The notes below the pieces were generated by a model. The model saw only the letters and a list, made by a program, of their open reading frames with translations. It had not been told where the DNA came from and did no database searches. This document shows positions 3,024 through 51,186 of a DNA stretch of 64,000 bases, in pieces. The number at the start of each line of letters is the position of its first letter. Positions within the stretch are counted from its first letter, which is position 1. Position numbers and translations under genes: made by a program. The DNA comes from Candidatus Cloacimonadota bacterium (GTDB taxonomy: Bacteria; Cloacimonadota; Cloacimonadia; Cloacimonadales; Cloacimonadaceae), in the NCBI GenBank assembly GCA_029781115.1, contig JAKOXG010000007.1, positions 1 to 64,000 on the forward strand, read 5' to 3'.

Positions 3024-3302
3024 ATGAATACAGAGAAACTATCGAACCTGGCCATGAACGACAACGGTTTTATCTTTGACCCTGAATCCGGCTACAGTTA
3101 CACGGCCAACGAGACAGGCATCTTCATCCTGAAGCGGATGGCAGCGGGAATGAAACAGCAGGAGATCTTTGAACAGCTCAGCGAGGTTTATGATGTGAGT
3201 GAAGACAATTTCAACAGCGACTACAGTCACTATATGCTGATGCTGGAAGCATTGGGTCTGGTTGCCTTTGAGGGAGGTTCCCTTGAATCCGGATCTGAGT
3301 AA
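3024..3302 (+). CDS. PqqD-family small protein
   Basis: This 92-residue protein has the PqqD-family pattern: a short N-terminal strand with GFIFDPESGYSYTANETG, followed by helices with I-x-L-x-x-x-x-x-G-x-x-x-x-E-I and an acidic helix (YDVSEDNFNSDYSHYML) resembling the winged-helix fold of RiPP recognition elements. Known relatives bind leader peptides and present them to modifying enzymes. It is the first gene of a seven-gene operon, and its 3' end overlaps the ATP-grasp gene by 20 bp, so the two are probably translated together. The start ATG at 3024 has GGAGCG just upstream. The family is fairly clear. Whether it binds a peptide, and which one, is inference. Confidence 0.75.
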   Translation: MNTEKLSNLAMNDNGFIFDPESGYSYTANETGIFILKRMAAGMKQQEIFEQLSEVYDVSEDNFNSDYSHYMLMLEALGLVAFEGGSLESGSE

Positions 3303-4347
3303 GTTAGACATCACCATAGCCGTGACGGGACTCAAAACCGGGGATAACCCTCAACCTGGCGTGCCGGTTATCCGCAGCATCCGGTCAGCAGGATTCACCG
3401 GCAAGATGGTGGGTCTGGTGTATGATTCCCTGGAGAGCGGCATCTATCTGGATGACCTGGTGGATCAGGTTTATCAGATGCCTTATCCATCGGCGGGTGC
3501 GGATGCCTTCCTCAACAGGCTGGATCAAATTTTAGAGCGGACGCAGCTGGATGTGATCGTCCCCACGCTGGATTCCGAAGTCATCCTCTACATCCGCCTC
3601 GCTGAAGAGCTCAAGCGGCGCGGCATACACACCTTCCTGCCAACTGAAGAATGCTTCCTCTTGCGTGACAAGACCAAGCTGGAAAGCTTCTTCGTGCCTC
3701 AAGGAGTGCCGGTGCCCAAGACCGTCTTGCTTACCAGTATCTCGCAGCTGAACACCCTCCATGAAGAGATCGGCTATCCTTGCTTCATCAAAGGCAGATA
3801 CTACGAGGCATTCAAAGCCGGCACTTGGGAAGAAGCAGTCAAACACTTCTATGACATCCAGTCACGCTGGGGCTTGCCGCTGCTGGCGCAACAGATAGTA
3901 CCCGGCGAAGAGTATAATATCGTGATCGTGGGTGACGGCGAAGGCGGGACCATCGGTATGGTGCCGCAAAAGAAGCTGGTGATTACCGACAAGGGCAAGG
4001 GCTTCGGCGGTGTGGTGGTGAAGAGCCCCAGCTTGGAAGAATTTGCCCGCAAGATCATCTCCATCCTCAAATGGCGCGGACCTTGCGAACTGGAAATCAT
4101 CCGTGGTTACGATGGAACCCATTACCTGATTGAGATCAACCCCCGCTTCCCAGCCTGGGTGCGCCTGGCGGAAGGCAGCGGACAAAACCAGCCCGCAGCC
4201 GTAGTGCTCAAAGCTTTGGGCCAAAAAGTGGACGAGCTTCCCGCTTGCAAGACCGGCACCATGTTTGTGCGTCATGCGGAAGACATCATCGCCGATATCT
4301 CCGTGATGGGCGAAGTTTCCGCCAAAAGTGAACTAATAAGAAGGTAA
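3283..4347 (+). CDS. ATP-grasp superfamily carboxylate-amine ligase
   Basis: The protein has about 354 residues. I place the start at TTG 3283 because GGAGG lies 5 bp upstream (3273-3277); an in-frame TTG at 3262 lacks a good ribosome-binding site. The N-terminal half resembles the pre-ATP-grasp domain of carbamoyl-phosphate-synthase-like enzymes. The ATP-grasp part contains PCFIKGRYYEAF, a central LLAQQIVPGEEYNIVIVGDG segment, and the metal-binding end LEIIRGYDGTHYLIEINPRF. Such enzymes activate a carboxylate as acyl phosphate and couple it to an amine or thiol; the substrate here is unknown. Its neighbours, a PqqD-like protein before it and a PLP decarboxylase after it, suggest it works on a peptide or an amino acid. 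It is not CarB: it is far too short and stands alone. Confidence 0.85.
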   Translation: MNPDLSKLDITIAVTGLKTGDNPQPGVPVIRSIRSAGFTGKMVGLVYDSLESGIYLDDLVDQVYQMPYPSAGADAFLNRLDQILERTQLDVIVPTLDSEVILYIRLAEELKRRGIHTFLPTEECFLLRDKTKLESFFVPQGVPVPKTVLLTSISQLNTLHEEIGYPCFIKGRYYEAFKAGTWEEAVKHFYDIQSRWGLPLLAQQIVPGEEYNIVIVGDGEGGTIGMVPQKKLVITDKGKGFGGVVVKSPSLEEFARKIISILKWRGPCELEIIRGYDGTHYLIEINPRFPAWVRLAEGSGQNQPAAVVLKALGQKVDELPACKTGTMFVRHAEDIIADISVMGEVSAKSELIRR

Positions 4348-4353
4348 AGTATT

Positions 4354-5703
4354 ATGAAAAAGACATATATAGCCCCCAATATCGAGCGGAACTCCGCCGG
4401 GAATACAAATAAATACGGCGCCAAGAGCGTGGTGAGATATCAGGACAAGATCGACGGCATCCCCGTCAAAGAGATCGTTGAGCAGTTTGGCTCGCCGGTC
4501 TTGGTGCTTTCTGAAAGCCAGATCCGCCGCCGTCACCGTCGCCTCATGGACGCTCTGCAGATGCACTATCCCAAGGTCAGACTGGCCTGGAGCTACAAGA
4601 CCAACTACCTGGGTGCAGTCTGCAACATCTTTCATCAGGAAGGCTCATGTGCGGAAGTGGTTTCCGGCATGGAATATGCCATGGCACGCAGATTGGGCAT
4701 ACCCGGCAATGAGATTATCTTCAATGGCCCGGGCAAGAAGAGACATGAACTGGAGCTGGCTATCCGCGAGGGCGCCAGAATCCATATCGACCACCTGGAT
4801 GAGCTGTATCTGATCGAGAAGATAGCACAGGAGCTGGATCTGGTGCCGCAAGTTGCCATCCGCGTCAACATGGATACCGGCATCTATCCGCAGTGGGATC
4901 GCTTTGGCTTCAATTATGAGAATGGCGAGGCTTACCGCGCCATCAACCGCATCGTCTCGGGTAAAGCCATGAAGATCGTGGGACTGCACGCCCACATCGG
5001 CACCTTCATTCTGGATGCCCAGGCGTATTACTATGAAGCTAAAGCCTTGCTGGAACTGGCACAGAGGATGAAGGATGAGCTGGGTATCACGGTGGAATAC
5101 ATCGATATGGGCGGCGGCTTTGCCTCGCAAAACACCCTGTTGGGCTCCTATGCGCCGGGCGAATTTATCTCGCCTTCGTTTGACCAATATGCCGAAGCCA
5201 TCGGTGCGGCATTCAACGAATCGCACTTTGTGAGCCAGAACCTGCCCAAGCTGATCCTGGAGACCGGCAGAGCCCTCATCGACGAAGCTGGCTACCTGAT
5301 CTCCAGCGTGGTGGGCAAGAAGAACCTGCCCTCCGGCGAGCGTGCCGTGATCTTGGATGCGGGTGTCAATACCACCATCACCGCTTGGTGGTACAAGCTG
5401 AAAGTCACGCCCACCCGTCCCTTCCCCGGCGCTTATCAGAACACCATCTTCTACGGGCCACTGTGCATGAATATCGACATCATGCGTCCCGCAGTGCCTT
5501 TCCCCGATCTCCAAACCGGCGAACCGGTGCTGATCACACCCACCGGAGCCTACAACAACACCCAGTGGATGCAGTTTATCGAATACCGCCCGCCCGTGGT
5601 GTTGATCTCGGAGACGGGCAAGCTGGAATTGCTGCGTCCGCGAGAGGAACTGGATGACGTGATTGGCCGCGAGATGATACCGGAGCACCTTAGGAGTCAA
5701 TGA
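4354..5703 (+). CDS. Fold-type III PLP-dependent amino acid decarboxylase (LysA/Orn-DC family)
   Basis: This 449-residue protein carries the full set of alanine-racemase-fold decarboxylase motifs: PLP lysine Lys82 (AWSYKTNYLG), GLHAHIGT at 210-217, the glycine loop DMGGG at 251-255, LETGR at 302-306, and the cross-dimer active-site pair Cys371/Asp375 (YGPLCMNID) with GAYNN at 398-402. Relatives decarboxylate diaminopimelate, ornithine, arginine or carboxynorspermidine. The substrate cannot be assigned from the sequence, and no other lysine-pathway gene is nearby. It starts 6 bp after the ATP-grasp gene and overlaps the next gene by ATGA. An oddity is the about 30-residue N-terminal extension (MKKTYIAPNIERNS...), which looks like the leader of small modified peptides rather than part of the barrel. 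Confidence 0.85.
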   Translation: MKKTYIAPNIERNSAGNTNKYGAKSVVRYQDKIDGIPVKEIVEQFGSPVLVLSESQIRRRHRRLMDALQMHYPKVRLAWSYKTNYLGAVCNIFHQEGSCAEVVSGMEYAMARRLGIPGNEIIFNGPGKKRHELELAIREGARIHIDHLDELYLIEKIAQELDLVPQVAIRVNMDTGIYPQWDRFGFNYENGEAYRAINRIVSGKAMKIVGLHAHIGTFILDAQAYYYEAKALLELAQRMKDELGITVEYIDMGGGFASQNTLLGSYAPGEFISPSFDQYAEAIGAAFNESHFVSQNLPKLILETGRALIDEAGYLISSVVGKKNLPSGERAVILDAGVNTTITAWWYKLKVTPTRPFPGAYQNTIFYGPLCMNIDIMRPAVPFPDLQTGEPVLITPTGAYNNTQWMQFIEYRPPVVLISETGKLELLRPREELDDVIGREMIPEHLRSQ

Positions 5704-7913
5704 GCAGAAACAACGTCGGCTCCGCACTGATCAAACTGGGCAAATCCATACCCCACGCCTATGCCACGGTGATGTTTTCAGACAGCCTGTGGGTGGGGAC
5801 GGCCATGTTGCTGCTCACTCTGGTTTCGCCCATCGTGGGAGTGGCAGGACTGTTGGGACTGCTGGCAGGACTGCTTTCGGCTCGGATATTAGGCTTTGAG
5901 GGCTGGGACTCCTCCAGCGGGGTGATGGCTTTCAACAGCCTGCTGATCGGGCTGGCGATAGGTTATTACTACCCTTATGCCGGAGTGCTGGAAAGCCCTT
6001 GGAGCTTCATAGCCCTGATCATAATTGCCGCGGTGGGAACACAATTGCTCTATGCTGCGCTAAATTACCTGACCCAGAGCTGGTTCAGGATGCCTTCCAT
6101 GAGTCTGGCCTTTTCGCTGAGTGCCACTCTGGTTTGGTATTATTTGGTGCGCAGCGGCAACTTCACCGGCGTGGGTTTTGAAAAGCCCCTGCTCTTCAGT
6201 GTGCAGCTTGAATTGCCCTGGTTTTGGAAGGATTTCTTCCTCAGTATGGCGAGCATCGTCTTTGTGCCGGATGTCCTGGTCGGCATCCTGCTTACGGTGG
6301 TGCTGCTGTTTATCTCGCGCATTGCGTTTATGCTGGCTCTGATGGGCTGGTCGATCTGTTTTGCTCTGCTGCAAGTTAGCGCCGTAAGCAGCACCTACGG
6401 GATGTTTTTTCCGGGCTTCAACCTCATCCTGATCAGCATCGCCATCGGTTCCATCTACCTGATCCCCGGCAAGACTTCATACCTGCTGGCTGCTTTGGGA
6501 ACGGTGATCGGCTTTGTGTTTTCCTATGCGCTCTCCGGGCGCTACTACTATCCTGATGTGATGCCTGCCCGTCCCGGCGTGCTTTTTGTGCCAATGTTTG
6601 CCCTCCCCATGAACGTGGTGGTCATCGCTCTCATCTATTCCCTGCGCTTGCGACTGCGGCAGCGGGCAGCTGTGATCAACGACTATGGCATCCTGCACCC
6701 GGAAAAGGCTTTGGAGGCTTACATCTCCAGATATCAGCGCTTCTCCAGCGCCGGAGTGCCCCAGATACAGCTGCCGATAAATGGCGAATGGAAGATTACC
6801 CAATCTCACAACGGTGCCCATACGCACAAGCTGGATTGGGCTTATGCTTGGGACTTTGAGATTGAGGACAGGTTTGGCAAGAAATATCTGGAAAACGAAG
6901 CTGACGTCAGGGACTACTACTGCTTTGGCAAACCGGTGCTTGCGGCTGCTGCGGGATATGTGGCAAAAGTGGTAAATTCCATACCGGACAATCCCATAGG
7001 CAGCACCAATACCCAAGACAACTGGGGCAACTACGTCACTATCTCGCATGGTTATGGCTATTTTACGCTCTATGCGCACCTGCGGGAAGGCTCGGTGAAG
7101 CTGGCAGAAGGCGACTACGTGAAGCTGGGCGATAAGATCGGCATGGTTGGCAATTCCGGACGCTCACCCGTGCCGCACCTTCACTTTCAAGCGCAAAGTG
7201 GCGTGGACGCCGGCTCCCCCACCATCTTCAGCCACATTGTAAACTACAAGAGGCAGACCGAAGACGGCGGCTACGAGCTTTGCAGCAGTGGCGTTCCCGA
7301 AGAGGGTGAAGTGGTCTCTCCCTTGGTGCCGGAAAAGGATCTCGCTCCCATCCTGCAGTTTGGCTATGGGCAAAAACAGCGTTACGCCGTGCAAACGCCG
7401 CGCAAAGAATGGCGGGAAACCTGGCAGGTCGACCTGGACCTGACCGGCACGCATTCTCTGGTCAGCGACCACGGCAGCAAGCTGGAGTTTTCCATCTACA
7501 ACGGCATCTACAACAGCCTCAAGCTCTCCCACGGACGCAAAACCGCTCTGGCTGCTTTTGCCATGGTGGCTTCACGTTTGCCTTGGAACGAAAGCGGGAA
7601 ACTGACTTGGAAAGACGAGCCCAGCCTCTCCGTGCTGATGGGACCCTTCTGGAAAAACGTCACCCTCTTTCTGATTCCCTTCTTCCAACCCATCCGCGTC
7701 TATGCCAAAGCGGAACTGCAACCGCAAGACCAGAAGATCAAAATGGAGAGTGTTACCTCCCTCAGCGTGCTGGGCATAGTGATCAGAAAACTGGAGGGAA
7801 CCCTCACTCTCAGCCGCAGGGAAGGCATTATCGACTTCTCCCTGCGGGAAAACTCACAAACCCTGCTCAGTGCTGAACGCATGGAGCCGGAAGAAACAAA
7901 GGTAAACTCATGA
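5700..7913 (+). CDS. Fusion of urea-transporter-like membrane domain and M23 metallopeptidase
   Basis: This is a 737-residue inner-membrane protein. Residues about 15-325 contain many hydrophobic segments with two copies of a urea-transporter-type signature (MPSMSLAF near 130; VPMFALPMN near 300) and the motif GVMAFNSLLIGLAIG. Residues about 365-530 form a LytM/M23 peptidase domain: HTHKLDWAYAWDFE, then NYVTISHGYGYFTLYAHL and PHLHFQ, the zinc-binding and catalytic positions of peptidoglycan endopeptidases. The rest is beta-rich and unrecognised. It starts inside the stop codon of the decarboxylase gene and ends in an ATGA overlap with the next gene. A reasonable inference is a channel for a small amide or amine coupled to periplasmic cell-wall or cross-link hydrolysis. 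Urea itself as substrate is not shown. Confidence 0.85.
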   Translation: MSRNNVGSALIKLGKSIPHAYATVMFSDSLWVGTAMLLLTLVSPIVGVAGLLGLLAGLLSARILGFEGWDSSSGVMAFNSLLIGLAIGYYYPYAGVLESPWSFIALIIIAAVGTQLLYAALNYLTQSWFRMPSMSLAFSLSATLVWYYLVRSGNFTGVGFEKPLLFSVQLELPWFWKDFFLSMASIVFVPDVLVGILLTVVLLFISRIAFMLALMGWSICFALLQVSAVSSTYGMFFPGFNLILISIAIGSIYLIPGKTSYLLAALGTVIGFVFSYALSGRYYYPDVMPARPGVLFVPMFALPMNVVVIALIYSLRLRLRQRAAVINDYGILHPEKALEAYISRYQRFSSAGVPQIQLPINGEWKITQSHNGAHTHKLDWAYAWDFEIEDRFGKKYLENEADVRDYYCFGKPVLAAAAGYVAKVVNSIPDNPIGSTNTQDNWGNYVTISHGYGYFTLYAHLREGSVKLAEGDYVKLGDKIGMVGNSGRSPVPHLHFQAQSGVDAGSPTIFSHIVNYKRQTEDGGYELCSSGVPEEGEVVSPLVPEKDLAPILQFGYGQKQRYAVQTPRKEWRETWQVDLDLTGTHSLVSDHGSKLEFSIYNGIYNSLKLSHGRKTALAAFAMVASRLPWNESGKLTWKDEPSLSVLMGPFWKNVTLFLIPFFQPIRVYAKAELQPQDQKIKMESVTSLSVLGIVIRKLEGTLTLSRREGIIDFSLRENSQTLLSAERMEPEETKVNS

Positions 7914-8512
7914 ATATCCGTATATCTATCTTGACTTTAGCCCTCATTATCACCCTGCCGATGTTGGCTCAGACCCGCGACATTGCGCAGTCCTACGCCT
8001 TGGAAGGCCAGGCAAACTATGTTGGCTCGCTGGAAATCATGCGCGAGTTAGCCGCAACCGACGCAGCGGAACCATTTTACCAAGTGAGAATCGCTTGGCT
8101 GGAATACCTGTTGGGACGCTATGAAAGAGCCATCTCCAGCTATCGCAAGGCGATCAGCCTGCGGGACAATCTGGACGCCCGCATCGGTATCATCAACTGC
8201 CGTCTCGCCTTGGGAGACTATCGCTTAGCCCTCAATGCCGCAGACAGTCTGTTGGTGGAGCATAGCCATAACACGCAGGTGCTCACCAAGGCAGCTTATG
8301 CAGCCTACATGCTCAAGGAATACTCCCAAGCCGCAGACTACTACACGCGCATCATCCAGCTCTACCCTTGGGATATGGAGATCAGGGGCTATCTGGTAAA
8401 CAACCTTTATCTTGCCGGTAAGGTCAAGGAAGCGAAGGCGGAATACAAGCTGCTCAAGAAATACTATCCCCTGTCCGGAATCGTAGCCCAATACAAGGGT
8501 GTGTTGGAATAA
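7910..8512 (+). CDS. Secreted tetratricopeptide-repeat protein
   Basis: This 200-residue protein has an N-terminal signal peptide (ISILTLALIITLPMLAQT) followed by about four TPR-like helical pairs, for example EPFYQVRIAWLEYLLGRYE and AAYAAYMLKEYSQAADYY. TPR proteins act as scaffolds for protein complexes. Its start overlaps the transporter/peptidase gene and its stop is 3 bp before the next TPR gene, so it belongs to the same unit and probably works in the periplasm with the M23 domain or the following barrel-like protein. No catalytic motif is visible. Confidence 0.75.
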   Translation: MNIRISILTLALIITLPMLAQTRDIAQSYALEGQANYVGSLEIMRELAATDAAEPFYQVRIAWLEYLLGRYERAISSYRKAISLRDNLDARIGIINCRLALGDYRLALNAADSLLVEHSHNTQVLTKAAYAAYMLKEYSQAADYYTRIIQLYPWDMEIRGYLVNNLYLAGKVKEAKAEYKLLKKYYPLSGIVAQYKGVLE

Positions 8513-8515
8513 GCT

Positions 8516-9772
8516 TTGAAACAAGCCATCCTGGTTCTGCTGCTGCTCTGTCTGCTGCTCGGCGTGATGGCTGAGGAGACAGACTACCGCAAGCTGCTGG
8601 AAGCTTCCAGGCTGGCTCTGGCCTACAATCCCCTGGATGCCGGGGCGCAATTGAACCTCGCCTACAGCCATATGATGTTAGGCGAGACGGATGAAGCCTT
8701 AGCTCAATACCAGAAACTGCGCCAGCTGAATCCCCAACTTTCCGCTGCAGCTATCGGTATTCTCTGGGCACTTGCTGCCAAAGGGGACTGGAAGCAGTGT
8801 CAGCAGTTGGGGCGGGAGTTCCTTGCCGAATTTCCCCAAGAGGGCATGATCCACCACTATCTGGCGGCAGCTCAAGCATATGACCGGAAGCCGCAACGGG
8901 CCAGAGTGGGCTATCTGAAAGCCATCGCTCTATTGGAGACATCCCCGCTGCGGGCTTTACCGGAGGAGGGTGCCGCTTGGGCTTATCTGGCTCTGGACGA
9001 CTATCCCGCTGCGGCACGTCACTTTAGCCGCTTGGATACCCTCTCTGCGTCGCCCGGTAAACTGGCTGCCAAACTGCATTCCGGCTTCGCCATCAAAGGA
9101 GCTTCGGGGCGTTTCCTGAACCTGGGCACCGCACTCTCCCACCACTCCTGGCAAGTCGCACTGGACGCTGGGGAAATGTGGTGGAAAGGTGATCCCTTCC
9201 GCTGGCAGATCAAAGCGTCAGCCCGCAAGCAGTTGCCGCTCACCGACCTGAATCTCAGCCTGCAATATCTGGATGGCAAGGACGAGCGCATCTATCCCGG
9301 CAAGACAGTCTCGCTGGCACTCAGCCCCAGGATCTATACGGAAACCTTGATCATCCGACCCCGCCTGGCGCAACACTTTTCCAGCTGGCAACGGCACAAC
9401 AACTACCAGACCGACCTGGGCCTTAAACTGATCAAACAGCCACTCACCTTCACCTACGCAGCCTCTCGCATCTATCAGGACAACGAGGCTGTGGGCGCAG
9501 ACACCGCTCATTGGGTGCACAGCGCGAGCACCTCCCTGCGCATCTGGCGTGACTTCTGGTTAGCTGCCCACGCCGGTTTTGGCGATCTCGCTTTCTTCGC
9601 AAGTCAAGCCGGAAGCTACAACGACGACTTTGAACCGGGCAACGCCTACTATGGCCTTTCCCTGGATGCGCCCCTGCCCGGCAAGTTGCAACTGCATCTC
9701 TATCATCAAATTGGAATCAAAGATAATGACCCTACCTCCTTCACTTCGTTGGGACTTAGCGTTGCGCTATAA
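8516..9772 (+). CDS. TPR protein with C-terminal outer-membrane beta-barrel-like domain
   Basis: This is a 418-residue protein starting at TTG 8516. That start is needed to include the signal peptide (ILVLLLLCLLLGVMAE); the ribosome-binding site is weak, which suggests coupling to the gene ending 3 bp before. Residues about 25-185 are TPR-like (LNLAYSHMMLGETDEALAQYQKL). From about 200 to the end the sequence alternates short hydrophobic/polar strands with aromatic residues (WQIKASARKQLPLTDLNLSLQYL, LRIWRDFWLAAHAGF) and ends in GLSVAL, as expected of a small outer-membrane beta-barrel. The TPR-plus-barrel layout is known in outer-membrane proteins such as SlaM/YaiO-like families; I cannot assign a specific one. 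Confidence 0.7.
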   Translation: MKQAILVLLLLCLLLGVMAEETDYRKLLEASRLALAYNPLDAGAQLNLAYSHMMLGETDEALAQYQKLRQLNPQLSAAAIGILWALAAKGDWKQCQQLGREFLAEFPQEGMIHHYLAAAQAYDRKPQRARVGYLKAIALLETSPLRALPEEGAAWAYLALDDYPAAARHFSRLDTLSASPGKLAAKLHSGFAIKGASGRFLNLGTALSHHSWQVALDAGEMWWKGDPFRWQIKASARKQLPLTDLNLSLQYLDGKDERIYPGKTVSLALSPRIYTETLIIRPRLAQHFSSWQRHNNYQTDLGLKLIKQPLTFTYAASRIYQDNEAVGADTAHWVHSASTSLRIWRDFWLAAHAGFGDLAFFASQAGSYNDDFEPGNAYYGLSLDAPLPGKLQLHLYHQIGIKDNDPTSFTSLGLSVAL

Positions 9773-12500
9773 GCTCATCCTACTCCTGCTGTTTCTGGCT
9801 TTTCTGACAGCCTGCAACCTGCGTGAAAACGCACTGCTGCCGCCAAACCTTGACCCCAAGGAATACATCACGGAAAACACCATCAAGGTCTATTTTGACC
9901 ACCTGATCAAGTCCTCCAACGACGACAGCTACCTCTACATCCCCAAAGAAAGCATTTCTGAGGCAGGCCTCTGGTATGGAGACCGGGTGACGCTCACCCG
10001 CGTGAAGGCACTGGCAAACAGGGACAGCCTGGCTTTACCCGTGGGCAGCAAGGCTTATACAGACACCTACCGGATCTCCGTCCTGCGCTCCGGACAGGAA
10101 GTGATTATCGACTCCCTGCGCTCTTTTGCCACCCTCTACACCGGCCTCAAACGGGATGCCGAGCTCGGCTCGCTGCGCATGGTAAAGAGTGCCTGGACCT
10201 TGGGTGCACGGCGGGTTGAGGTCTATCCTTACGGCTCCGGACGTTGCTGGTTTGACCTCGACGGCAGCGGCGAACTCGCCTTGATCGACTTTAAAGATTC
10301 CAACGAGCTGCGTTTGCCGGCTACTTCCAAAGCCTTGCAAGCTTTGATGATCAACTCCGCAGATTCCCTGCGCTTATGGTTCCCTGCAGGCTCCCTGAGT
10401 TCTGAAGTAACTGTCAAGCTGGAGAAAAGCCTTTCCACCACCGAAATCAGCACCGTGCAGAACCTTTTCCCCGGCTTTACGTTGAACACCCCCATCCTTA
10501 CTTTGGAGGGGAATCTGGGTTCAGCTCCAGTGCCGATCGTCTACTATCGTATGCCCCAACCGCGCATGCTGCAGCGGCAATGGACGCGTTTGCATGGAGG
10601 CGAGGTGTATGGCTGGCCGCAGGGCGAAAACACCTGGCTCTGGCGGGATGGCGAACTGGTGAGCTTCCTCAATGGAGCGGGCAAGTTTTTCCTGCTCTCA
10701 CCTCTGGAAAGCCAAAACCGGCTTGATCTACCCCTGGACGGCTCACTTTCCCGGCTCTATCTGCAGGATCTCTGGATGGATCTGCGCGGTCTGAACCTAC
10801 CCGGCATCAATCTGTGCCTCGACCTGCAGCCCGATGCCCAAACCCTGCTGACAGACTATTTTAAGGGCAGCCCCTTCAAACTTTCATCAGACCGCCAAAT
10901 CTTCGACATCAGCTTCACTCAGGCAGGCACGTTGCTGGAGAATCTACCCTCGGAGGAGTGGGTCGAGTTTGGATTCCGTTCAAAGCTGCAGAACCGCAAT
11001 GCCGCCAAGCTGTTCCGTGCCTTCAGATCAGCGACTGCTGACAAGATCAGCTTCAAGTCTTTGGCAGACGGCTACGACGCCAACCATTACACCATCAGCG
11101 ATGGCTTTGTCTACAGCGGCGTCAGCTCCAGCGGTGTCTATATCTACGGCAGAGCCACGGAAGAAAGCAGCCGCCTGCGTGTTCCCTGCCTCAAGCCCCA
11201 ATTGCAGTTGCAGACTACCCGCAGCTATGTGAGCTACAACGATCCTCAGCCACCCTGCAGCAGCTTGGAACTGGAATACTCTGCCAGCGTGCCTTCCGGT
11301 CATCCCTGGCTCTCTGGTTCGCCCTATCAGTTAAACTCCAACCAAGCGCTGATGCGCATCTCCGCCTTCAACCGTGGCCGCAGTCAAGCCGAGCTGCCTG
11401 ACAATCTCTTCCTTTCCACCGCCTACGGCAAGACGCTGTCCAGTGTGGTAAATATCTGGCCTTCAACAGACTACCCTCAGTTTTACCGCTACATAGCTGC
11501 AACGACTTTCCAGCCCAACAGCTTCGTGCAAAGCGGTGGCAAGTTGCAGATCTATCCCACTTGTGCGGGTTATCTTTTGGACGGAGCGCAACTTAACTCT
11601 CGCTCCTCTGACAAAAATCTGGCTGTGTTTAACCGTATGGCTTTCGACGACTACGACTGGGAAGCCTGGCTCAATTCCGGCCTGGACGTGATCTCCGGCA
11701 CCACCATCAAGGTAAGCCCGAAAAACGCTCTCAGCGACGCCTACGGGGTGTTTGCCACCCAATACTCCCTCAGCCCGCTGGCGCAGATTTACAGCTTCCA
11801 GGCTGTGGGTGATCCCGAGTTCTACTCCAAATTCCAACCCCTGATCCGCCTCCGCCAAAGCTCACGCACCCAGAATCTGCTGTTTTCGGTCTCGGATGGC
11901 GATTTTTACCGCATCTATGCCTACAACCAGAGCAGCGAACTGGATGGCTGGCATTTTTACCTGGCAGACGGATATGCCTCCTTCTATCTGCTCTATGATG
12001 CCGAATATGCTGTCGTGCAAGACCTTGCGCCCCATACCGAAACGCAGGCTACCGTCACCGATACCAGCCGTGACCTGATCGCCTCGCTCTATCAAGCCCA
12101 GATAACCATGCCTTCCAAGCTTCTTGGCAACCTGCTGCCACTGGGATCACGCATAGAGCTCAGTCGTGTCTCCGCTCCACCTGTGCCAAACACCCTTTCT
12201 GCCTATCAGGTGCTCTTCCGGGATGCCCAACAGCAGCCCATTGCCACCAATTTCTACACCGATCCCACCGCCACCCGCTGGCCTTATCTCTACATTCCGG
12301 TTCCAAATTACACGCCGGGACAGCAGATTCGACTCTTTTTCCGCGATTCAGACGGCAACACCAGCGAGTTTAACCGGGTGCAGGCTTTCTCCGAGCTGCC
12401 AAATTACGAGTATACGCTGGTTGGCAACTGCGCTGTCTGCTTCATCGATAAGCCCGGGCTGTTCTACATTACCGGCACCTCTGGCAAACGCGGATACTGA
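9762..12500 (+). CDS. Large beta-rich lipoprotein of unknown function
   Basis: The product has about 912 residues. I choose TTG 9762 as start because it gives a textbook lipoprotein signal, MRYKLILLLLFLAFLTAC with lipobox LTAC; an in-frame ATG at 9726 would add 12 residues. The mature protein should be lipidated on Cys18. No family is recognised. The body is rich in beta-type segments, short repeats of Leu-Tyr-Asp and aromatic residues, and a run of surface-like domains. It overlaps the end of the preceding barrel-like gene by 11 bp and is the last gene of the operon. Context suggests it sits on the outer membrane or cell surface as part of the same envelope system. No enzyme motif is seen. 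Confidence 0.7.
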   Translation: MRYKLILLLLFLAFLTACNLRENALLPPNLDPKEYITENTIKVYFDHLIKSSNDDSYLYIPKESISEAGLWYGDRVTLTRVKALANRDSLALPVGSKAYTDTYRISVLRSGQEVIIDSLRSFATLYTGLKRDAELGSLRMVKSAWTLGARRVEVYPYGSGRCWFDLDGSGELALIDFKDSNELRLPATSKALQALMINSADSLRLWFPAGSLSSEVTVKLEKSLSTTEISTVQNLFPGFTLNTPILTLEGNLGSAPVPIVYYRMPQPRMLQRQWTRLHGGEVYGWPQGENTWLWRDGELVSFLNGAGKFFLLSPLESQNRLDLPLDGSLSRLYLQDLWMDLRGLNLPGINLCLDLQPDAQTLLTDYFKGSPFKLSSDRQIFDISFTQAGTLLENLPSEEWVEFGFRSKLQNRNAAKLFRAFRSATADKISFKSLADGYDANHYTISDGFVYSGVSSSGVYIYGRATEESSRLRVPCLKPQLQLQTTRSYVSYNDPQPPCSSLELEYSASVPSGHPWLSGSPYQLNSNQALMRISAFNRGRSQAELPDNLFLSTAYGKTLSSVVNIWPSTDYPQFYRYIAATTFQPNSFVQSGGKLQIYPTCAGYLLDGAQLNSRSSDKNLAVFNRMAFDDYDWEAWLNSGLDVISGTTIKVSPKNALSDAYGVFATQYSLSPLAQIYSFQAVGDPEFYSKFQPLIRLRQSSRTQNLLFSVSDGDFYRIYAYNQSSELDGWHFYLADGYASFYLLYDAEYAVVQDLAPHTETQATVTDTSRDLIASLYQAQITMPSKLLGNLLPLGSRIELSRVSAPPVPNTLSAYQVLFRDAQQQPIATNFYTDPTATRWPYLYIPVPNYTPGQQIRLFFRDSDGNTSEFNRVQAFSELPNYEYTLVGNCAVCFIDKPGLFYITGTSGKRGY

Positions 12501-27248: not shown

Positions 27249-27535
27249 ATGAAAAAGGCTTTTACTTCGTCTGTAATCAGTTCTGGATCAAAGGCTTGTC
27301 CCATCAGTTCGCAGGCTGAGAAGTCCTCTCTGCACATGGGGAAGATGTAGACTTTATCCGTTTCTGCATCGATGAGGTCTTCAATTACGCATTTCAGTTC
27401 CTTTCTCTGCGTCTTGTTCAGGTCTCCCAAAAAGACGGAATATTGCACCCTATAGATGCCGGCTTTTTCACATGCTTTTGCCACTTTGGTGCGGGCTTTA
27501 TCCTCTACGATGTCATACATTACCCAGGTGAGCAT
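27245..27535 (-). CDS. cas2: CRISPR-associated endoribonuclease-fold protein Cas2
   Basis: This is a 96-residue Cas2 of normal size with the ferredoxin-like start MLTWVMYDIVEDKARTKVAK, including the conserved Asp8, then YRVQYSVFLGDL and the VYIFPMC strand. In complex with Cas1 it is the structural core of the spacer integrase. Its start overlaps the cas1 stop (TAATG) and its stop overlaps the cas4 start, so the three adaptation genes are translationally coupled. Confidence 0.95.
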   Translation of the reverse strand: MLTWVMYDIVEDKARTKVAKACEKAGIYRVQYSVFLGDLNKTQRKELKCVIEDLIDAETDKVYIFPMCREDFSACELMGQAFDPELITDEVKAFFI

Positions 27536-28587
27536 TATTCCTCCATGTCCTCGGTATCTTCAGAGTTCAGAAAGTTGTCCAATCTGGTAGCCACCGTGCT
27601 ATCCAGATAGCTTTTCCTTCTATTTATGATAAAGTTGGCAAAGGCATGGGCATCACTGCGGATCATGTCTATACGTTTCCGGTTTTTGTTGTGATGGCGG
27701 ATCTTGGTATCAAAATGTTCCAGGATCAGAGGAGCCAAGAATTTCTTTCCCGCCGTGGTGAGCACCACTCCCTTGTGGATGGGCTCTATGTAGCTGGAAT
27801 CAAACTTATGACGTGAGAAGATATAAAACACAGGCTCATCGATCAGGATGCGGTAGGGTTCGATAAAGTCGAAGACAAAGGACTTTTTATTGTAATTATC
27901 ACAGTGCAAAAGCCCGATATACGGATCCAGCCCGGCGATGACCAGAGCTCGCTCCACCTTGGAATACAGGATGCCATATCCATAATTGAGCATGGCATTG
28001 AATGCGTCTTTTGCAGGCCTGTAACTGCGGCCTGAAAACCTATGCACTTCTGGGATGAGCTCGGCCAAGATGGAAAAGTAGCTTTTGGATGCAGTGCCTT
28101 CCCAGCCCATAAAGGAACCGGAAAGCTCATCCAGTGAGCCTTCAGCTTCCATCACCTTGATGGCAGAATCCCGCATGGTGTCCAGCTTTGCCTGAAATGA
28201 TTGCGGATCGATATCCCTCTTGGAGATCAGCTTCTTGATAAAGCGATGTTGATTCATGATCTTAAGGACAACCCGCTCCTTGATAAACTTCAAACCGGTA
28301 GCATCGGTGAGCATCTCCAATTGCCTTCTACGGATGGCCACGGTGCTGCCCATCTTGGGAAACCATACCCTGCCATAGGGATCGCCATACTTATCCAGAA
28401 ACACAATGTCGATATTGTGTTCCATCGCCAGACCGATGGCGTCCGTGCTGATCAAAGCAGCGTTGGAGATGACGATGGAAGATATCTTCAGGGGCGAGAG
28501 CTTGACCTTTTTGCCCTCTACGCCCAGCTCAAACATCTCATCTTTTTTCTTGAGCCAACTGCCGTAGGTGTTTAGATAGAGTTCCAT
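27535..28587 (-). CDS. cas1: CRISPR-associated integrase Cas1
   Basis: This 350-residue Cas1 has an N-terminal beta domain and a C-terminal helical catalytic domain. The metal-binding residues are recognisable: Glu163 (GWEGTASKSYF), His228 (GLLHCDNY) and Asp240/Glu243 (FDFIEPYR). It integrates new spacers at the leader end of the array. The ATG directly abuts the cas3 stop codon. Confidence 0.96.
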   Translation of the reverse strand: MELYLNTYGSWLKKKDEMFELGVEGKKVKLSPLKISSIVISNAALISTDAIGLAMEHNIDIVFLDKYGDPYGRVWFPKMGSTVAIRRRQLEMLTDATGLKFIKERVVLKIMNQHRFIKKLISKRDIDPQSFQAKLDTMRDSAIKVMEAEGSLDELSGSFMGWEGTASKSYFSILAELIPEVHRFSGRSYRPAKDAFNAMLNYGYGILYSKVERALVIAGLDPYIGLLHCDNYNKKSFVFDFIEPYRILIDEPVFYIFSRHKFDSSYIEPIHKGVVLTTAGKKFLAPLILEHFDTKIRHHNKNRKRIDMIRSDAHAFANFIINRRKSYLDSTVATRLDNFLNSEDTEDMEE

Positions 28588-31071
28588 TTAAAACTGCCAC
28601 TGCTCATGGGCGTGTTCAACTTCTTTCTTAAAGCCCATGTCTTCACTATAGATGGTATCAATATGTTCTTTTTTTACGTAAAATTCATTCTCACTCAAAG
28701 TAATAAGGTGGGGGTTTTGCCCTTTTTGAGTGCTTAGATCCCTGTGGTGCAAGCTTATTTGGAAGTTGGCCAAACGGTTTCGCAATCTCTTCAAGTCCAT
28801 TATCAAACGATCTCTGCCTTCGCTATCTCCATCATGTGCTTTCAGGGCTTTTTCGGTGTTGGTGTATTCAACCATCATATCTTGAGCTTCATCGTTGACC
28901 AGAACAAACAGTGTGGTGTCTTGGTAGTTATCCACAATCAATTTAAATTCAGATACAGGTGTTTCTCCCACTCTATCGTCATTATCATAATTCAGGTTTG
29001 CAATGGCGGCAAGATGCATTATGCTCCGGGCATCAGATTGAAGTGAACCGAAGTATTGATTGGATAGCTCAAAAAAGTCTTTGCTGAACCACTCTTGTTT
29101 TTCGCTTAAAGCGGCATCTGTCTGCTGGAGCAGATATTTGTCATAGATCCGATAAGCATATTCCTTTTCGTTATTGTCAGTAAGCCGCACTAACCGCATT
29201 TCTCCACCCAAAACACCATATTCACCACTACGGTTGCAGCGTCCCGCTGTTTGAACAACACTGTCCAGGGGTGCAAAATCTCTTATTACCAGTTTGAAGC
29301 TGATATCCACTCCCGCCTCAACCAGTTGCGTGGAGATAAGGACGACCTTTTCTTTATTCTTCAGCCTTTGGACAACCTTAGCTATGATTTGACTCCTGTG
29401 CAGAGGTATCTGGCTGGTGCTGAGGCAGTATATCTCAAACTCGTTTCCATATTCTTCGGAGAGGGTGTCATAAGCTTGTTTCACGGCAGCTTTGGTGTTG
29501 AGTATGAGCAGCAGATTGTCAAATTCTAAAGTGCCTATTGTCTCAAGGTAGTCGGACAGCTTCACTTTTTCAGGATTATAGGTCATTTTTACCCTGTTAA
29601 CCACTGGATTTTGAAAATATGCCAAGTCGCTCAGCTCTTTATCGCTATCACCATCGGAAGTGGATTCAAACAGAAAAGGACGTGTAGCCGTGCAGAGCAC
29701 GATATAGGTTTTAAACCTCTCAGCCAAAACCTTAAAAAGCACTCTCAACAGATAATAGTAGTCCGGACTAACGTTTTGAACTTCATCCAAGATAATGATG
29801 GAATTGATGATATTGTGCAGCTTTTTCAGGGTCTTATTTCTGTTGCCGATCAGGGTATGGAACAACTGCACAAAGGTAGACACCACCATGGCACTTACCC
29901 AGGATTCAACTATGAGCAGGTCGTTCATATAATCCCAATAATCATAGTCTGGATCATCCTTGCTGAGTTTGTAATAATCCTGCAGGTGATGGTGACGAAT
30001 GATGTACTTGTAGCTCTCGTCCTTTAGCTCCCGGTGGTTATGCTGGAATACGTCCTGATAAACCTCGTAGTTTTGGTCTATAATTGACGTAAATGGCAGG
30101 CAATAGATGATGCGTCTCATGCGATCCAGCTTGCTCTGCAGTGTGCTGACAAATTTCATACAGGCCAAGGTCTTTCCTATGCCCGTGGGTGCTGTGATGG
30201 TGTATTGATACTGATCGCTTGAGATGATCTCATTTGTGCCACATTTAGCGTAGAATTCGGTGCGCAGCCTGTTTACAGGTGTATCCTTAGCTGTTTTGAA
30301 TTTGGCTTTCTTATAGGGATCTGGGTTCATGTCCAGCGTTTCAATACTTTTATCAAACCAAGCTTGATCCAAGCGGGCCGCATCCATCTTATCCTTGGTT
30401 ATCAGGATAGAAAAGAGCAAGTTGGCAATGATGAACAGCTCCATAGAGTTTTCTTCAGCGATACCCTTGGACTCAGCTTGAGTGTGGTCACTGAATTCAA
30501 ACTCAGCGATATCTTCTATAAGTTCCTTAAGCCCTCTCTTGGATAGTGGTTCAAGCTGAACCCCATTGTCACCTAAGAACTTCTTAAACAAAGGATGGGA
30601 GCGCACATTTGAGCAGATGTCTTTGTAGACATCTACCAACCGTAATAAGGCAGCATTACTACACGTCAAACTATACAAGTGCTCATAGGAATCAAGGTTC
30701 CCGTGATGGCGTTGGATGATTTTGAAGGCTAAAGGTGCCGCGAAATCAGGCAAATCTTTCAGTCTCTGCATGTTTTGATATGCTATAATAGCTGAGATCA
30801 GACTGTGATTTGCCATTTGACCCTGGGATTCATCTCCACCCAGTTTCTTTTGGAAATAAGTAGAGGCTTTGCCGATGTCATGCAACAAACCAATACGAAA
30901 GGCAAGCTCTGCAAGTGAACTTTTGTCGATCAAGTGCAGGTTCAGGTCCAGATCTTCAACAATTCTCTTGCAAGAGCTCGCCACATTTAGGAGGTGATCA
31001 GCAAGATAGATTCCCGCGAATCCTTTGAATTCGGGGTGTGAATACAATCTTTTCTCGCCAGCCAATCTCAT
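28588..31071 (-). CDS. cas3: CRISPR-associated helicase-nuclease Cas3
   Basis: This 827-residue fusion has an N-terminal HD nuclease domain (His26 in ADHLLNV; His64-Asp65 in GLLHDIGKAS; KIIQRHHGNL) and a superfamily 2 helicase core: Walker A TAPTGIGKT near 290, Walker B ILDEVQNV near 428, and motifs LISTQLVEAGVDISF and QTAGRCNRSGE. It is recruited by Cascade to unwind and degrade the non-target strand. It starts 4 bp after cas5 and ends exactly before cas1. Length and domain order are normal for type I-B. Confidence 0.96.
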   Translation of the reverse strand: MRLAGEKRLYSHPEFKGFAGIYLADHLLNVASSCKRIVEDLDLNLHLIDKSSLAELAFRIGLLHDIGKASTYFQKKLGGDESQGQMANHSLISAIIAYQNMQRLKDLPDFAAPLAFKIIQRHHGNLDSYEHLYSLTCSNAALLRLVDVYKDICSNVRSHPLFKKFLGDNGVQLEPLSKRGLKELIEDIAEFEFSDHTQAESKGIAEENSMELFIIANLLFSILITKDKMDAARLDQAWFDKSIETLDMNPDPYKKAKFKTAKDTPVNRLRTEFYAKCGTNEIISSDQYQYTITAPTGIGKTLACMKFVSTLQSKLDRMRRIIYCLPFTSIIDQNYEVYQDVFQHNHRELKDESYKYIIRHHHLQDYYKLSKDDPDYDYWDYMNDLLIVESWVSAMVVSTFVQLFHTLIGNRNKTLKKLHNIINSIIILDEVQNVSPDYYYLLRVLFKVLAERFKTYIVLCTATRPFLFESTSDGDSDKELSDLAYFQNPVVNRVKMTYNPEKVKLSDYLETIGTLEFDNLLLILNTKAAVKQAYDTLSEEYGNEFEIYCLSTSQIPLHRSQIIAKVVQRLKNKEKVVLISTQLVEAGVDISFKLVIRDFAPLDSVVQTAGRCNRSGEYGVLGGEMRLVRLTDNNEKEYAYRIYDKYLLQQTDAALSEKQEWFSKDFFELSNQYFGSLQSDARSIMHLAAIANLNYDNDDRVGETPVSEFKLIVDNYQDTTLFVLVNDEAQDMMVEYTNTEKALKAHDGDSEGRDRLIMDLKRLRNRLANFQISLHHRDLSTQKGQNPHLITLSENEFYVKKEHIDTIYSEDMGFKKEVEHAHEQWQF

Positions 31072-31075
31072 TACC

Positions 31076-31864
31076 TCAGAGGAAGTAAATCACTTCTTCT
31101 TGTTCATTCTTGATTTTGCAACAATCCTTGAAAATGCCTTCAATGCGTTGACCTGAAATATGGAAAAGTATCTCCTCTGCCCTTATCAGGCGACGCACTT
31201 GCTCATTATTTATCTTCTCTTGACTTTGCTCTAAAGGCATCCTCTCGATTTGCAACACGCCCTGCTCATCCAAGTTGGGCTTTGCTTTTCCCAGGGCTAT
31301 GGCACTATCCACATAGGCAGATTCACTTACCATCTCAAACTCAGATTCATCATACCGGTTTACAATTTCCAGGTCAGCTCTGAATTGCCTCTGTCCCAGA
31401 TAAATACCATAACCGAAGTTTCTGTCTGAGAGCAGCTTTTCAATTCCGGCCAGCTTTTCATTTTGGGTATGGAAACCAAGCCAAATCCGGTAGCTGATAT
31501 CTTTGTCATCACCGCCAGTGAGCAATTCAAAACGGCATTGGCTGTGTACCGAGACATCATTTATAGGGTTTTGTTTGGATTTGTCTTTGATATAATTCAA
31601 GGTTTGCATAAACTTACGCGGCTGGACTCCTCTTTTTACCGCAACTGCTACGAAGAGCTTATCCGAGCTGAGAGCTTCGTAATAAGAATCCCTAGAACAC
31701 TTAAGTACAGAAGCGATCAGGCCAGCCACGGCTGTTCGGGGCGGAATAGTAAAGGTAAGCGAGGAAGCGTTGGTGTAAAACTTGCGAAAATGCGCAAATT
31801 TGCCGCTTAACTCCAGCTCTAATATCCTATTGGGGTGACCTCTTGCATCCATTGTCAACCCCAT
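31076..31864 (-). CDS. cas5: Type I-B Cascade subunit Cas5
   Basis: This 262-residue protein has the Cas5 N-terminal RAMP fold: LELELSGKFAHFRKFYTNASSLTFTIPPRTAVAGLIASVL, with the PPRTA.GLI motif that is diagnostic. In the complex Cas5 caps the 5' handle of the crRNA and contacts Cas8. The ATG shares a base with the cas7 stop (TAATG); a second in-frame ATG 12 bp downstream is also possible. The gene order cas7-cas5-cas3 supports I-B. Confidence 0.93.
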   Translation of the reverse strand: MGLTMDARGHPNRILELELSGKFAHFRKFYTNASSLTFTIPPRTAVAGLIASVLKCSRDSYYEALSSDKLFVAVAVKRGVQPRKFMQTLNYIKDKSKQNPINDVSVHSQCRFELLTGGDDKDISYRIWLGFHTQNEKLAGIEKLLSDRNFGYGIYLGQRQFRADLEIVNRYDESEFEMVSESAYVDSAIALGKAKPNLDEQGVLQIERMPLEQSQEKINNEQVRRLIRAEEILFHISGQRIEGIFKDCCKIKNEQEEVIYFL

Positions 31865-32727
31865 TAGTAAGTGAGCTTAGATACATCATTTTCGAGGTTA
31901 TTAAAATTCGTAAGTTCCAATTCGCTATCTTGCCATAGATGGATTTCGTTGATTAGATCCTTGTTTTCGTTTAGATAAGCTACAAGCTTACTCATATCCA
32001 GCCGGTAATCATCTATCTTTCTGATCAGATGCAAGTCATCGCCTATATGATCTTTGGGGACAAAGTCGATCATGGAGCGCAGGTCCTTTAGAAAGCTTAG
32101 TTTGTCTTTCATCTCTACCCTCATGTAGAGCCTCGGATATTGCCCAATCTTACTGCGGGTTCTGAAGAAAGGAATTGACTTTAACATCGCCTCATCCAGC
32201 AGCTGCAGGTCTTCAGGGGTCATTTTAGTGCCTTTCGCAATATTGGCATTGATGCTACCGGAAAAGGCGATCAAAGAATAGTAAAGCCGATAGTCTTTGC
32301 CTACCCCTTCTCTGCTGGAAAAGCTGGAGGTTATAGTTACAGAGTCTACCAGTTCGACGGGATGTAGTGAGTATCCCCAGTTGAATTGAACAGGTCCGGT
32401 ATAGTGTCCTTCGGTAGTTTTTTCTTCTGCAGTAACCGCGCCGAAAAGTCTCACATCAATGAGGTCGAAATGGGTGATCTCCTGTTTCTTGATCTGCTTG
32501 TTGCGGTCCTTGGCATCCTTGGCAGACGAGGTGATGAAGATATTCTTCTCTAAGCCAGTTTCAAAATAATCACGTAGATAACGTTTTAAGCGAACATCAG
32601 ATACGAGATTGGTGTTGGTGTCAAAATCCATGCGGGGTTTGTTTTCATTGTCCATGTCTCCGTTGGGGTTGCACATCTGTGCGTCGTAAAGGAAGAGTAT
32701 CTCGGAATTGTTTTTAATTGTCTCCAT
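31864..32727 (-). CDS. cas7: Type I-B Cascade backbone subunit Cas7 (Csh2 family)
   Basis: This 287-residue protein begins NNSEILFLYDAQMCNPNGDMDNENKPRMD, the Csh2-type signature, followed by SDVRLKRYLRDYF and FDLIDVRLFGAVTAEE. Several copies coat the spacer part of the crRNA in Cascade. The start overlaps the cas8 3' end by 14 bp, with GGAG 8 bp upstream inside cas8. Assignment to I-B rests on this Csh2 signature together with cas8 and cas6. Confidence 0.95.
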   Translation of the reverse strand: METIKNNSEILFLYDAQMCNPNGDMDNENKPRMDFDTNTNLVSDVRLKRYLRDYFETGLEKNIFITSSAKDAKDRNKQIKKQEITHFDLIDVRLFGAVTAEEKTTEGHYTGPVQFNWGYSLHPVELVDSVTITSSFSSREGVGKDYRLYYSLIAFSGSINANIAKGTKMTPEDLQLLDEAMLKSIPFFRTRSKIGQYPRLYMRVEMKDKLSFLKDLRSMIDFVPKDHIGDDLHLIRKIDDYRLDMSKLVAYLNENKDLINEIHLWQDSELELTNFNNLENDVSKLTY

Positions 32728-33190
32728 TGTTTAGCTCCTGTGTTTGTTGTTCTTGTTCTTTGTTTTTGCCGTAGTATATACGTAAATAGCTTTCGTAAGC
32801 TTTGCCAGCCAAGATATAAAAAACCACTTCCTGGGGCAATAGATCTGAAGATTCAATACCTATCATGGACTCAGTACAGTAGGCCAATAGCTGGTCGTCT
32901 CTCCATACATCACGAATCTTAAGGTATTCTTCCACTGTGCCATAAAGGGACTTCACCTTTCTGGGCGAGATGCCTCTAAAGTTAAGTCGGATTGAAAATG
33001 TCTTTTTGTCTGTTTTCTTCCATTCTGCATGTTCGATTCGGTCAATCAAGACTCCCAGCAAAAAGAGCCCTCGATGATATTGGCTCTTTTCTGCCTCATT
33101 GAATATATGTGCATGATTGTCGAAGTAGTTCAGATAGTCCTTATGCGCCTTGGGATCTAACTGAGTGGTTAGATTCTGCTCATTTGTCAT
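32714..33190 (-). CDS. Predicted Cas11b small subunit, internal in-frame translation within cas8b
   Basis: Inside cas8b, AAGGAG (33199-33204) stands 8 nt upstream of an in-frame ATG at 33190 (codon 523). The resulting 158-residue protein begins MTNEQNLTTQLDPKAHKDYL and is largely helical, with a charged, Gln-rich tail. In other type I-B systems Cas11 is known to be made from an internal start in cas8, as a free small subunit of Cascade. The position, size and very good Shine-Dalgarno match here fit that closely. Independent translation in this organism is inference. Confidence 0.75.
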   Translation of the reverse strand: MTNEQNLTTQLDPKAHKDYLNYFDNHAHIFNEAEKSQYHRGLFLLGVLIDRIEHAEWKKTDKKTFSIRLNFRGISPRKVKSLYGTVEEYLKIRDVWRDDQLLAYCTESMIGIESSDLLPQEVVFYILAGKAYESYLRIYYGKNKEQEQQTQELNNGDN

Positions 33191-34756: not shown

Positions 34757-34848
34757 CTTTCCTCCTGTTGTTTTGATAACACCAAACCGCCGCTGTACGG
34801 GCGGTCGCTGAACCGCCGCTTATTGATCATCTTTCCTCCTGTTGTTTT
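34751..34848 (-). repeat. Tandem duplication with REP-like hairpin at the cas6-cas8b junction
   Basis: A 24-bp block (GATCATCTTTCCTCCTGTTG plus TTTT on the plus strand) occurs at 34751-34774 and again at 34825-34848, 74 bp apart. It encodes the last residues of cas6 (KQQEER), the Shine-Dalgarno and the ATGATC start. The class A REP-like hairpin (about 34798-34820) lies between the two copies. Confidence 0.85.
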
Positions 34849-35501
34849 ATCACCACCCCAAAGCCGCGGGCGCTTTGTTTGCCCAGCCCTAAGTATTGGG
34901 GGATGTGAAAGTTGGTGGTAAAATCGCCATAGAAGCACTGCATGGCTTGGTTGTGAAAGTTTACGTTTACGCCTCTGAACCAGCCATCTACGTTGAGGTT
35001 TTCCACATTGGGGATCCAGTAGTCAAAGGCCTTGGAGAGTGTCTTGAGGTTGTTTTTGAGGATGGTTTTGAGCAGTTGTTTGCGCTCGTAGTCGTCGTAA
35101 GAATCGTAAAGCCGGTGGTTCTCCTGGTTTAGAGCCATCCAAGGGCTGGCGAAGCGGTATTGATGATACTCCTCACAGCGACCGAAGTCCTCTTCCCGCA
35201 GCGAGATTTCCCGCTCGTTGGAGCGCAGAGTGCGGCCATTGATCTCCAGTTCGTCCACCTCCATAAACACCATTTTCAATAGATCGATACCTTCGCCGAA
35301 GGCCAAAAGAGCGGGATGGGAGTCAATAAGGCGATACTGGATCCTGGGCGCAGCATAATTGAAACCACGGCCCGGAGTGTGATTGTGGAACAAGGGGAAA
35401 TCCGCAAATTTATGCGCAAAGAACCCTCTCAGCTTCGGGATCTCCCGAGGCTGTAGCCGGATGTCATTCCAGCTAACTAACAAATAACGTATCTTTTTCA
35501 T
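34827..35501 (-). CDS. cas6: CRISPR repeat-processing endoribonuclease Cas6
   Basis: This 224-residue RAMP protein, first gene of the cas operon, ends with the glycine-rich loop GLGKQSARGFGVV that defines Cas6, and begins with a beta strand typical of the ferredoxin-like fold (KKIRYLLVSW). It cuts the precursor crRNA within each repeat, leaving the ATTGAAAC handle. His29 and nearby histidines in the N-terminal part could be catalytic. The stop overlaps an ATG (ATGATC) that now leads nowhere useful; the real cas8b start is the duplicated copy 74 bp further on. Confidence 0.9.
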   Translation of the reverse strand: MKKIRYLLVSWNDIRLQPREIPKLRGFFAHKFADFPLFHNHTPGRGFNYAAPRIQYRLIDSHPALLAFGEGIDLLKMVFMEVDELEINGRTLRSNEREISLREEDFGRCEEYHQYRFASPWMALNQENHRLYDSYDDYERKQLLKTILKNNLKTLSKAFDYWIPNVENLNVDGWFRGVNVNFHNQAMQCFYGDFTTNFHIPQYLGLGKQSARGFGVVIKQQEER

Positions 35502-39772: not shown

Positions 39773-39791
39773 AACTCTCTCCCTGTTTAGT

Positions 39792-42302: not shown

Positions 42303-42315
42303 GAAAAACTCCTCG

Positions 42316-48258: not shown

Positions 48259-48276
48259 GATATTCTCCTTGTCCAT

Positions 48277-51168: not shown

Positions 51169-51186
51169 GGGTCTCTCCTTGTTTGA

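Follow-up and report, generated by a model that had tools for sequence, protein, structure and literature searches.

The window, that is, the whole 64,000-nt stretch of DNA that was analysed, carries between positions 3024 and 12500 seven open reading frames (ORFs), all on the same strand and with gaps of at most 6 bp, here named genes A to G (Table 1). The frames overlap by 4 bp at C/D and D/E and by about 20 to 47 bp at A/B and F/G. Pfam matches over cut-off were found for PqqD (PF05402), ATP-grasp (PF15632 and PF02655), Orn_Arg_deC (PF02784/PF00278), M23 (PF01551) and TPR domains. A first-pass annotation of this DNA had described seven same-strand genes in one tight unit with PqqD, ATP-grasp, decarboxylase and M23 families, and both descriptions stood; its transport/peptidase set does contain domains of both kinds, but they reside in a single protein, D.

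Table 1. Positions in the window of the genes of the cassette and of features within them.
Feature	Position	Strand	Description
Gene A	3024..3302	+	Discrete PqqD-like RRE (RiPP recognition element)
Gene B	3283..4347	+	ATP-grasp ligase, PRK12767/PF15632-like; ORF opens at TTG 3262
Gene C	4354..5703	+	Fold-III PLP decarboxylase with N-terminal leader-like tag; 449 residues
Leader-like tag of C, MKKxYxxPxIxxxxxGxxNKYG	4354..4419	+	YxxPxI, putative RRE-binding motif, at 4366-4383
Gene D	5700..7913	+	Urea-transporter (UT, PF03253) domain fused to M23
UT-fold channel of D, residues ~1-318	5700..6653	+	PF03253, 130 bits; AF2; Foldseek
M23 zinc peptidase domain of D, residues ~360-510	6777..7229	+	PF01551, 69 bits
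C-terminal beta-rich domain of D, residues ~511-737	7230..7913	+	AF2 model, mostly strands, pLDDT ~90
Gene E	7910..8512	+	TPR protein (TPR_19 etc.) with N-terminal signal-like hydrophobic segment
Gene F	8516..9772	+	N-terminal TPR and ~14-strand outer-membrane beta-barrel (AF2)
Gene G	~9726..12500	+	Large lipoprotein, lipobox-like LTAC

Since a ribosome site (GAGGGAGG) precedes TTG 3283 and most orthologues start near there, translation of gene B likely begins at this codon rather than at TTG 3262. Downstream of G lie genes for an AMP-ligase (12770) and an M18 peptidase (14684), whose neighbourhood with the cassette is kept only within the genus, so the unit was taken to end at G. Promoter and terminator scans of the operon gave signals near shuffle expectation. 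The intergenic DNA upstream of the operon (2610-2710) contains short imperfect repeats of 'gttgtgagttgtcagttgtgag'. Elsewhere in the window are a Type I-B CRISPR-Cas operon (Cas1b, Cas3, Cas5b, Cas7b, Cas8b and Cas6; 27535-35501, minus strand) with an array of ∼38 repeats, GTTTCAATCCTTGGTGTGTTGGATGGGTGTTGTAAAG (23645 to ∼26400), and, at 36302-56214 on the minus strand, five consecutive very large ORFs (836-1986 aa). All five contain CarboxypepD_reg repeats, end in a Por_Secre_tail and are probably T9SS-type surface proteins.

Inheritance of the cassette

Genes A and B occurred in an identical set of 26 of the 61 related genomes compared, and D in the same 26 together with two genomes in which the contig begins within D or shortly before it. 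The order and strand of A-B-C-D were constant in loci from the host's own order, with E, F and G next in most. Across the phylum, B was found in 34 of 125 genomes, each with E < 1e-160, and its presence was patchy even inside genera, so that the genes seem to be gained and lost together.

A profile of C, searched against a collection of genomes from 84,980 species, returned at least 584 relatives. The best 80 of these at least 584 relatives bear record titles from about 20 phyla, a count in which certain MAG labels may be mis-binned. Going by the record titles, from which we assigned the phylum names ourselves, they include Aquificota, Thermodesulfobacteriota, Campylobacterota, Bacteroidota, Gemmatimonadota, Pseudomonadota, Myxococcota, Planctomycetota, Cyanobacteriota, Elusimicrobiota, Armatimonadota and Fibrobacterota. 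At nearly every untruncated locus among these best 80, A-B-C-D stood in order. Whole-genome searches of six genomes without D at the locus found D elsewhere in five, and the same search of six genomes without A at the locus found A elsewhere, again in five, indicating that the link between the genes outlasts the break-up of the operon. In three Aquificota loci (L070, L076 and L069) the cassette is scattered or inverted, and the missing members that were searched for are still in the genome. In several unrelated phyla (L063, L105, L106, L109, L118, L128 and L131) two-component histidine kinase/response regulator genes, or genes resembling them, are found a few genes upstream of the cassette and might be a pointer to its regulation.

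The first-pass annotation had proposed a dedicated system, to be supported by conserved order in several lineages and refuted if the homologues lay mostly apart. They clearly do not lie apart, being inherited together in the relatives and, across ∼20 phyla, kept in the order A-B-C-D at nearly every untruncated locus, well beyond what chance would give. As a seven-gene unit the proposal is too wide: A to D, the TPR gene E and a barrel gene are widely conserved, but G, which is syntenic in related genomes and has no Pfam or NCBIfam match, was observed only in cassettes from the host's own order. Its remark that no named pathway has this combination was borne out, as no named counterpart was found. 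The open-licence literature that was searched yielded no paper describing this gene set, which is not proof that there is none; there, PqqD, ATP-grasp and decarboxylase were met together solely in one unrelated review, and nothing was found on a urea transporter with peptidase M23 or on PqqD with a urea transporter.

A leader-type RRE and a tagged decarboxylase

Gene A scored 39.6 bits against PF05402 (cut-off 23.4), and its best relatives in the PDB are the lasso RREs TbiB1 (E=9.6e-9) and TfuB1 (E=1.2e-7). Residues N29 (3108-3110) and D66 (3219-3221) are present in 71 and 70, respectively, of 73 homologues, and in the alignment the corresponding profile positions fall on N51 and D88 of the 9x8z chain. 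We take this entry to be LppB and these residues to be its N33 and D70, assuming from their spacing an 18-residue offset. LppB N33 and D70 hydrogen-bond the backbone of the leader's Pro and its Tyr, and when they are mutated leader binding is weakened or nearly abolished (PMC13381572). With a PqqD profile match over cut-off, kinship to lasso RREs and both the Asn and the Asp, A belongs with the discrete RREs. No second PqqD gene was found in the host genome.

The N-termini of 81 C proteins read [Y/W]xxPx[I/L/V/M/F], usually followed by ...GxMNKFG. The proline (P8), the aromatic residue at position 5 (Y in 73, W in 8) and a hydrophobic residue at position 10 are present in all 81, and the second half of the tag is kept somewhat less strictly (G16 in 74, N19 in 71, K20 in 76 and G22 in 74), certain lineages being without the GxMNKFG half. 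Since the solved relatives (FslC, LysA, BtrK and DokD) lack the tag and align only from model position 30 or beyond, the tag is an addition to C. The region that follows it is conserved in the manner of a linker, not variable as in a RiPP core. No NCBIfam family matched any of four 33-34 aa tags scanned.

Discrete lasso RREs recognise leaders with [Y/W]xxPx[L/V/I/F/A] (PMC13381572). The cassette thus shares with the RRE-leader pairs of lasso/LPP systems (TbiB1, TfuB1, PbaB1 and LppB-LppA) a discrete PqqD-fold RRE, a [Y/W]xxPx[hydrophobic] tag and the gripping Asn and Asp, but differs in that the tag sits on a 449-residue enzyme and that its seven genes include neither a lasso cyclase (Asn-synthase-like) nor a B2 protease. 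In the 80 cross-phylum loci no short precursor peptide having a leader and a variable core was found beside the RRE, and a motif search of both strands of these loci for a separate precursor peptide with the tag gave, besides C, a single chance match. Given a tag that is the leader motif of lasso RREs, an RRE nearest to those of lasso systems with its gripping residues kept, and no separate precursor, A most likely docks C itself through the leader-like N-terminus of C. The earlier view of the PqqD protein as a peptide presenter therefore holds as regards a leader-type RRE, but the likely partner is the decarboxylase's own N-terminus and not a separate peptide, of which the 80 loci have none.

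Covariation of the tag's Tyr/Trp with D66 of A was considered and set aside as too weak: D66E occurs in two of the eight W-type loci against a change in one of the 65 others, the eight W-type tags being mostly paired with intact D66, and the A-C coevolution signal is weak. In Francisella sp. SYW-9 (L126), C has YSKPII without GxMNKFG, and A seems shortened in the region of the last helix (match 3-63 in a 71-aa frame).

Predicted chemistry of B and C

The closest solved relative of C is the N-citrylornithine decarboxylase FigC/FslC. Pocket residues T343, Y347, C371 and M372 of C match T327, Y331, C354 and M355 of FigC, and are kept in 79, 79, 81 and 80 of the 81 C proteins. At these positions ODC-type enzymes use acids and DAPDC an Arg, reading the free distal end of the substrate, and the relatives of FigC in its clade, SbnH, AcsE, MccE and BtrK, take conjugated amino acids as substrates (PMC7857480). 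Judged by the pocket residues, the probable substrate of C is an amino acid whose side chain has already been joined to a partner. The citrate-binding residues H357 and R387 of FigC are replaced in C by I374 and Q404, which argues that the conjugation partner is not citrate, and FigC T330 corresponds to W346; the partner is probably uncharged. As an ATP-grasp ligase, B is the most natural candidate for the coupling step.

Assignments of C to known families were rejected. As LysA (TIGR01048) it scores 216 against 297.9 bits, with Arg replaced by T343 and Glu by M372 at the positions that read the D-centre; as FslC/FigC (NF041039) it scores 226 against 500 bits and lacks the citrate-binding residues; and as DokD its score is below the family cut-off. 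A pathway to a carboxylate (citrate-type) siderophore resembling rhizoferrin, which the nearness of FslC/FigC to C might suggest, is accordingly highly improbable: besides that shortfall in score and the replacement of H357/R387, family search found no NIS synthetase among the seven genes. What C shares with FslC/FigC, and with SbnH, AcsE, MccE and BtrK, is a fold-III PLP decarboxylase with the Thr/Tyr/Cys-Met pocket and a probable conjugated substrate, the extra tag and an ATP-grasp coupling enzyme in place of an NIS synthetase setting it apart. The cassette is also reminiscent of BtrI-BtrJ-BtrK of butirosin biosynthesis, where BtrJ serves in the coupling; the scheme proposed here has in common with it that an amino acid is coupled at the expense of ATP and, once tethered, decarboxylated by a fold-III enzyme, but the cassette has an RRE and a tagged decarboxylase where the butirosin system has an acyl carrier protein.

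Gene D combines a channel fold with a peptidase domain

In the AF2 model of D (pLDDT 85.7), residues 1-318 correspond to the dvUT fold over its full extent (Foldseek, 3k3g, target-normalised TM-score 0.80), while M23 peptidases are matched by the domain that follows. As in dvUT and other UT/SLC14 urea transporters, the UT fold is complete and the aromatic pore residues (F26 and F188) are mostly kept; unlike dvUT, D is fused to M23 and a beta domain, and it falls below the urea_trans_yut cut-off (62 against 275 bits). The equivalent of Q24 is variable and that of E187 mostly Ala or Ser. In the dvUT structure these are the polar residues of the urea site, and since they are not conserved the solute of D is probably not urea. 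The beta-rich domain at the C-terminus (∼225 aa) has no Pfam match, and none of the structural matches listed is distinct to it; most aligned homologues of D continue through this domain, similarity being low in the most distant of them.

The M23 residues H376, D385, H460, H493 and H495 (zinc ligands and catalytic His) are present in all 66 D homologues, the first motif having a longer His-to-Asp spacing than usual. In UT proteins both termini lie at the cytoplasmic face of the membrane. The mean net charge of D is +1.4 in the N-flank, +1.8 in the C-flank and -0.8 in the mid-linker, and no segment after the UT domain, including the stretch ahead of M23, looks hydrophobic enough for another membrane crossing. 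From the full UT fold with both ends on one side, the flank charges and the lack of a further transmembrane segment, we predict that the M23 domain lies in the cytoplasm, unlike peptidoglycan hydrolases. The same prediction makes it distinctly unlikely that M23 cuts peptidoglycan while the other genes install an amino-acid-derived group there, even though the active site is intact and E to G are envelope proteins; the envelope remodelling put forward in the first-pass annotation is thus not supported.

The intact peptidase site bears also on a RiPP-like scheme, in which B would aminoacylate the N-terminus of C (e.g. at K20), C would decarboxylate the tethered group and M23 of D would free the peptide. 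The leader motif and conserved GxMNKFG segment on C, an M23 site that is fully conserved and probably on the same side as C, the lack of a separate precursor in the loci searched, and the activity of the clade relative BtrK on carrier-bound glutamate all fit such self-modification. However, K20 is missing in five of the 81 C proteins, the region after the tag resembles a linker and not a variable RiPP core, and whole lineages without GxMNKFG have a D with all five M23 residues, which makes cutting of the tag at NKFG by M23 unlikely as well; taken as a whole, the scheme is improbable.

Envelope proteins E and F

The product of gene E is predicted to be periplasmic. Among 51 loci with enough sequence downstream, 42 had a TPR gene like E no more than three genes away from D, and at least 30 had a barrel-like gene at that distance. 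The AF2 model of F (pLDDT 90.9) has a TPR part followed by ∼14 strands, and its top Foldseek matches are BcsC (9b8a) and OmpG (2f1c). The TPR domain followed by an outer-membrane barrel is shared with exporters of the BcsC/PgaA type, but F is much smaller, the cassette has no glycosyltransferase, and other phyla often split TPR and barrel into separate genes.

A transport route of this kind could in principle run inwards, with F, E and D importing a small urea- or amide-like compound for processing by A to C. UT proteins are passive bidirectional channels, and transport by a TPR and barrel pair could run in or out; against uptake or salvage, the polar urea-site residues are not kept in D and an ATP-grasp enzyme followed by a decarboxylase has a biosynthetic logic, so that we regard this reading as unlikely.

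A proposed RRE-organised pathway

The gene set, its order and co-inheritance, the conservation of the tag, the gripping and pocket residues and the folds of D and F were computed directly, and they are consistent with an RRE-organised system of diderm bacteria for small-molecule biosynthesis (A to C) and export (D to F), a reading to which we give about an even chance. In the cytoplasm, the stand-alone RRE A would grip the leader-like N-terminus of C and keep C next to the ligase B, so forming a small assembly line. B, spending ATP, would couple an amino acid via its side chain to an uncharged partner, and C would then remove the alpha-carboxylate of this conjugate. The product, or a processed piece of it, would cross the inner membrane through the urea-channel-like pore of D, after which E (TPR) and F (barrel) would carry it over the periplasm and the outer membrane. 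Since the solutes that UT channels let through are very small and neutral, a large conjugate would have to be trimmed to fit; the probable role of the M23 domain of D is to trim or hydrolyse an intermediate at the cytoplasmic face of the channel. The binding of C by A, the order of the reactions, the direction of transport and the location and role of M23 are inferred; export in particular is assumed, and import is a less likely alternative. Of the division first proposed, with three genes for chemistry and four for export or remodelling, cytoplasmic chemistry by A to C and passage through the envelope by D to F are plausible, while the remodelling is not retained.

Many RRE matches lie outside known RiPP clusters (PMC7470986, PMC12710340). 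The new point here is that an enzyme carries a leader-like tag, which a stand-alone RRE apparently reads. That the cassette represents a new class, RRE-guided with no precursor, in which the leader has become a permanent address tag on an enzyme, the RRE gathers the ligase and this decarboxylase at the channel-like transporter D with its cytoplasmic M23 domain, and a metabolite is made and exported in ∼20 phyla, is a tentative proposal that we hold at slightly less than even. A set of genes inherited together over ∼20 phyla normally means an important uncharacterised function, and no name was found for the A-B-C-D cassette. Taken together, these data suggest that RREs reach beyond RiPP precursors and may organise ordinary enzymes wearing a leader-like tag, which, if true, would alter the interpretation of PqqD-like genes that lack a precursor peptide when genomes are mined.
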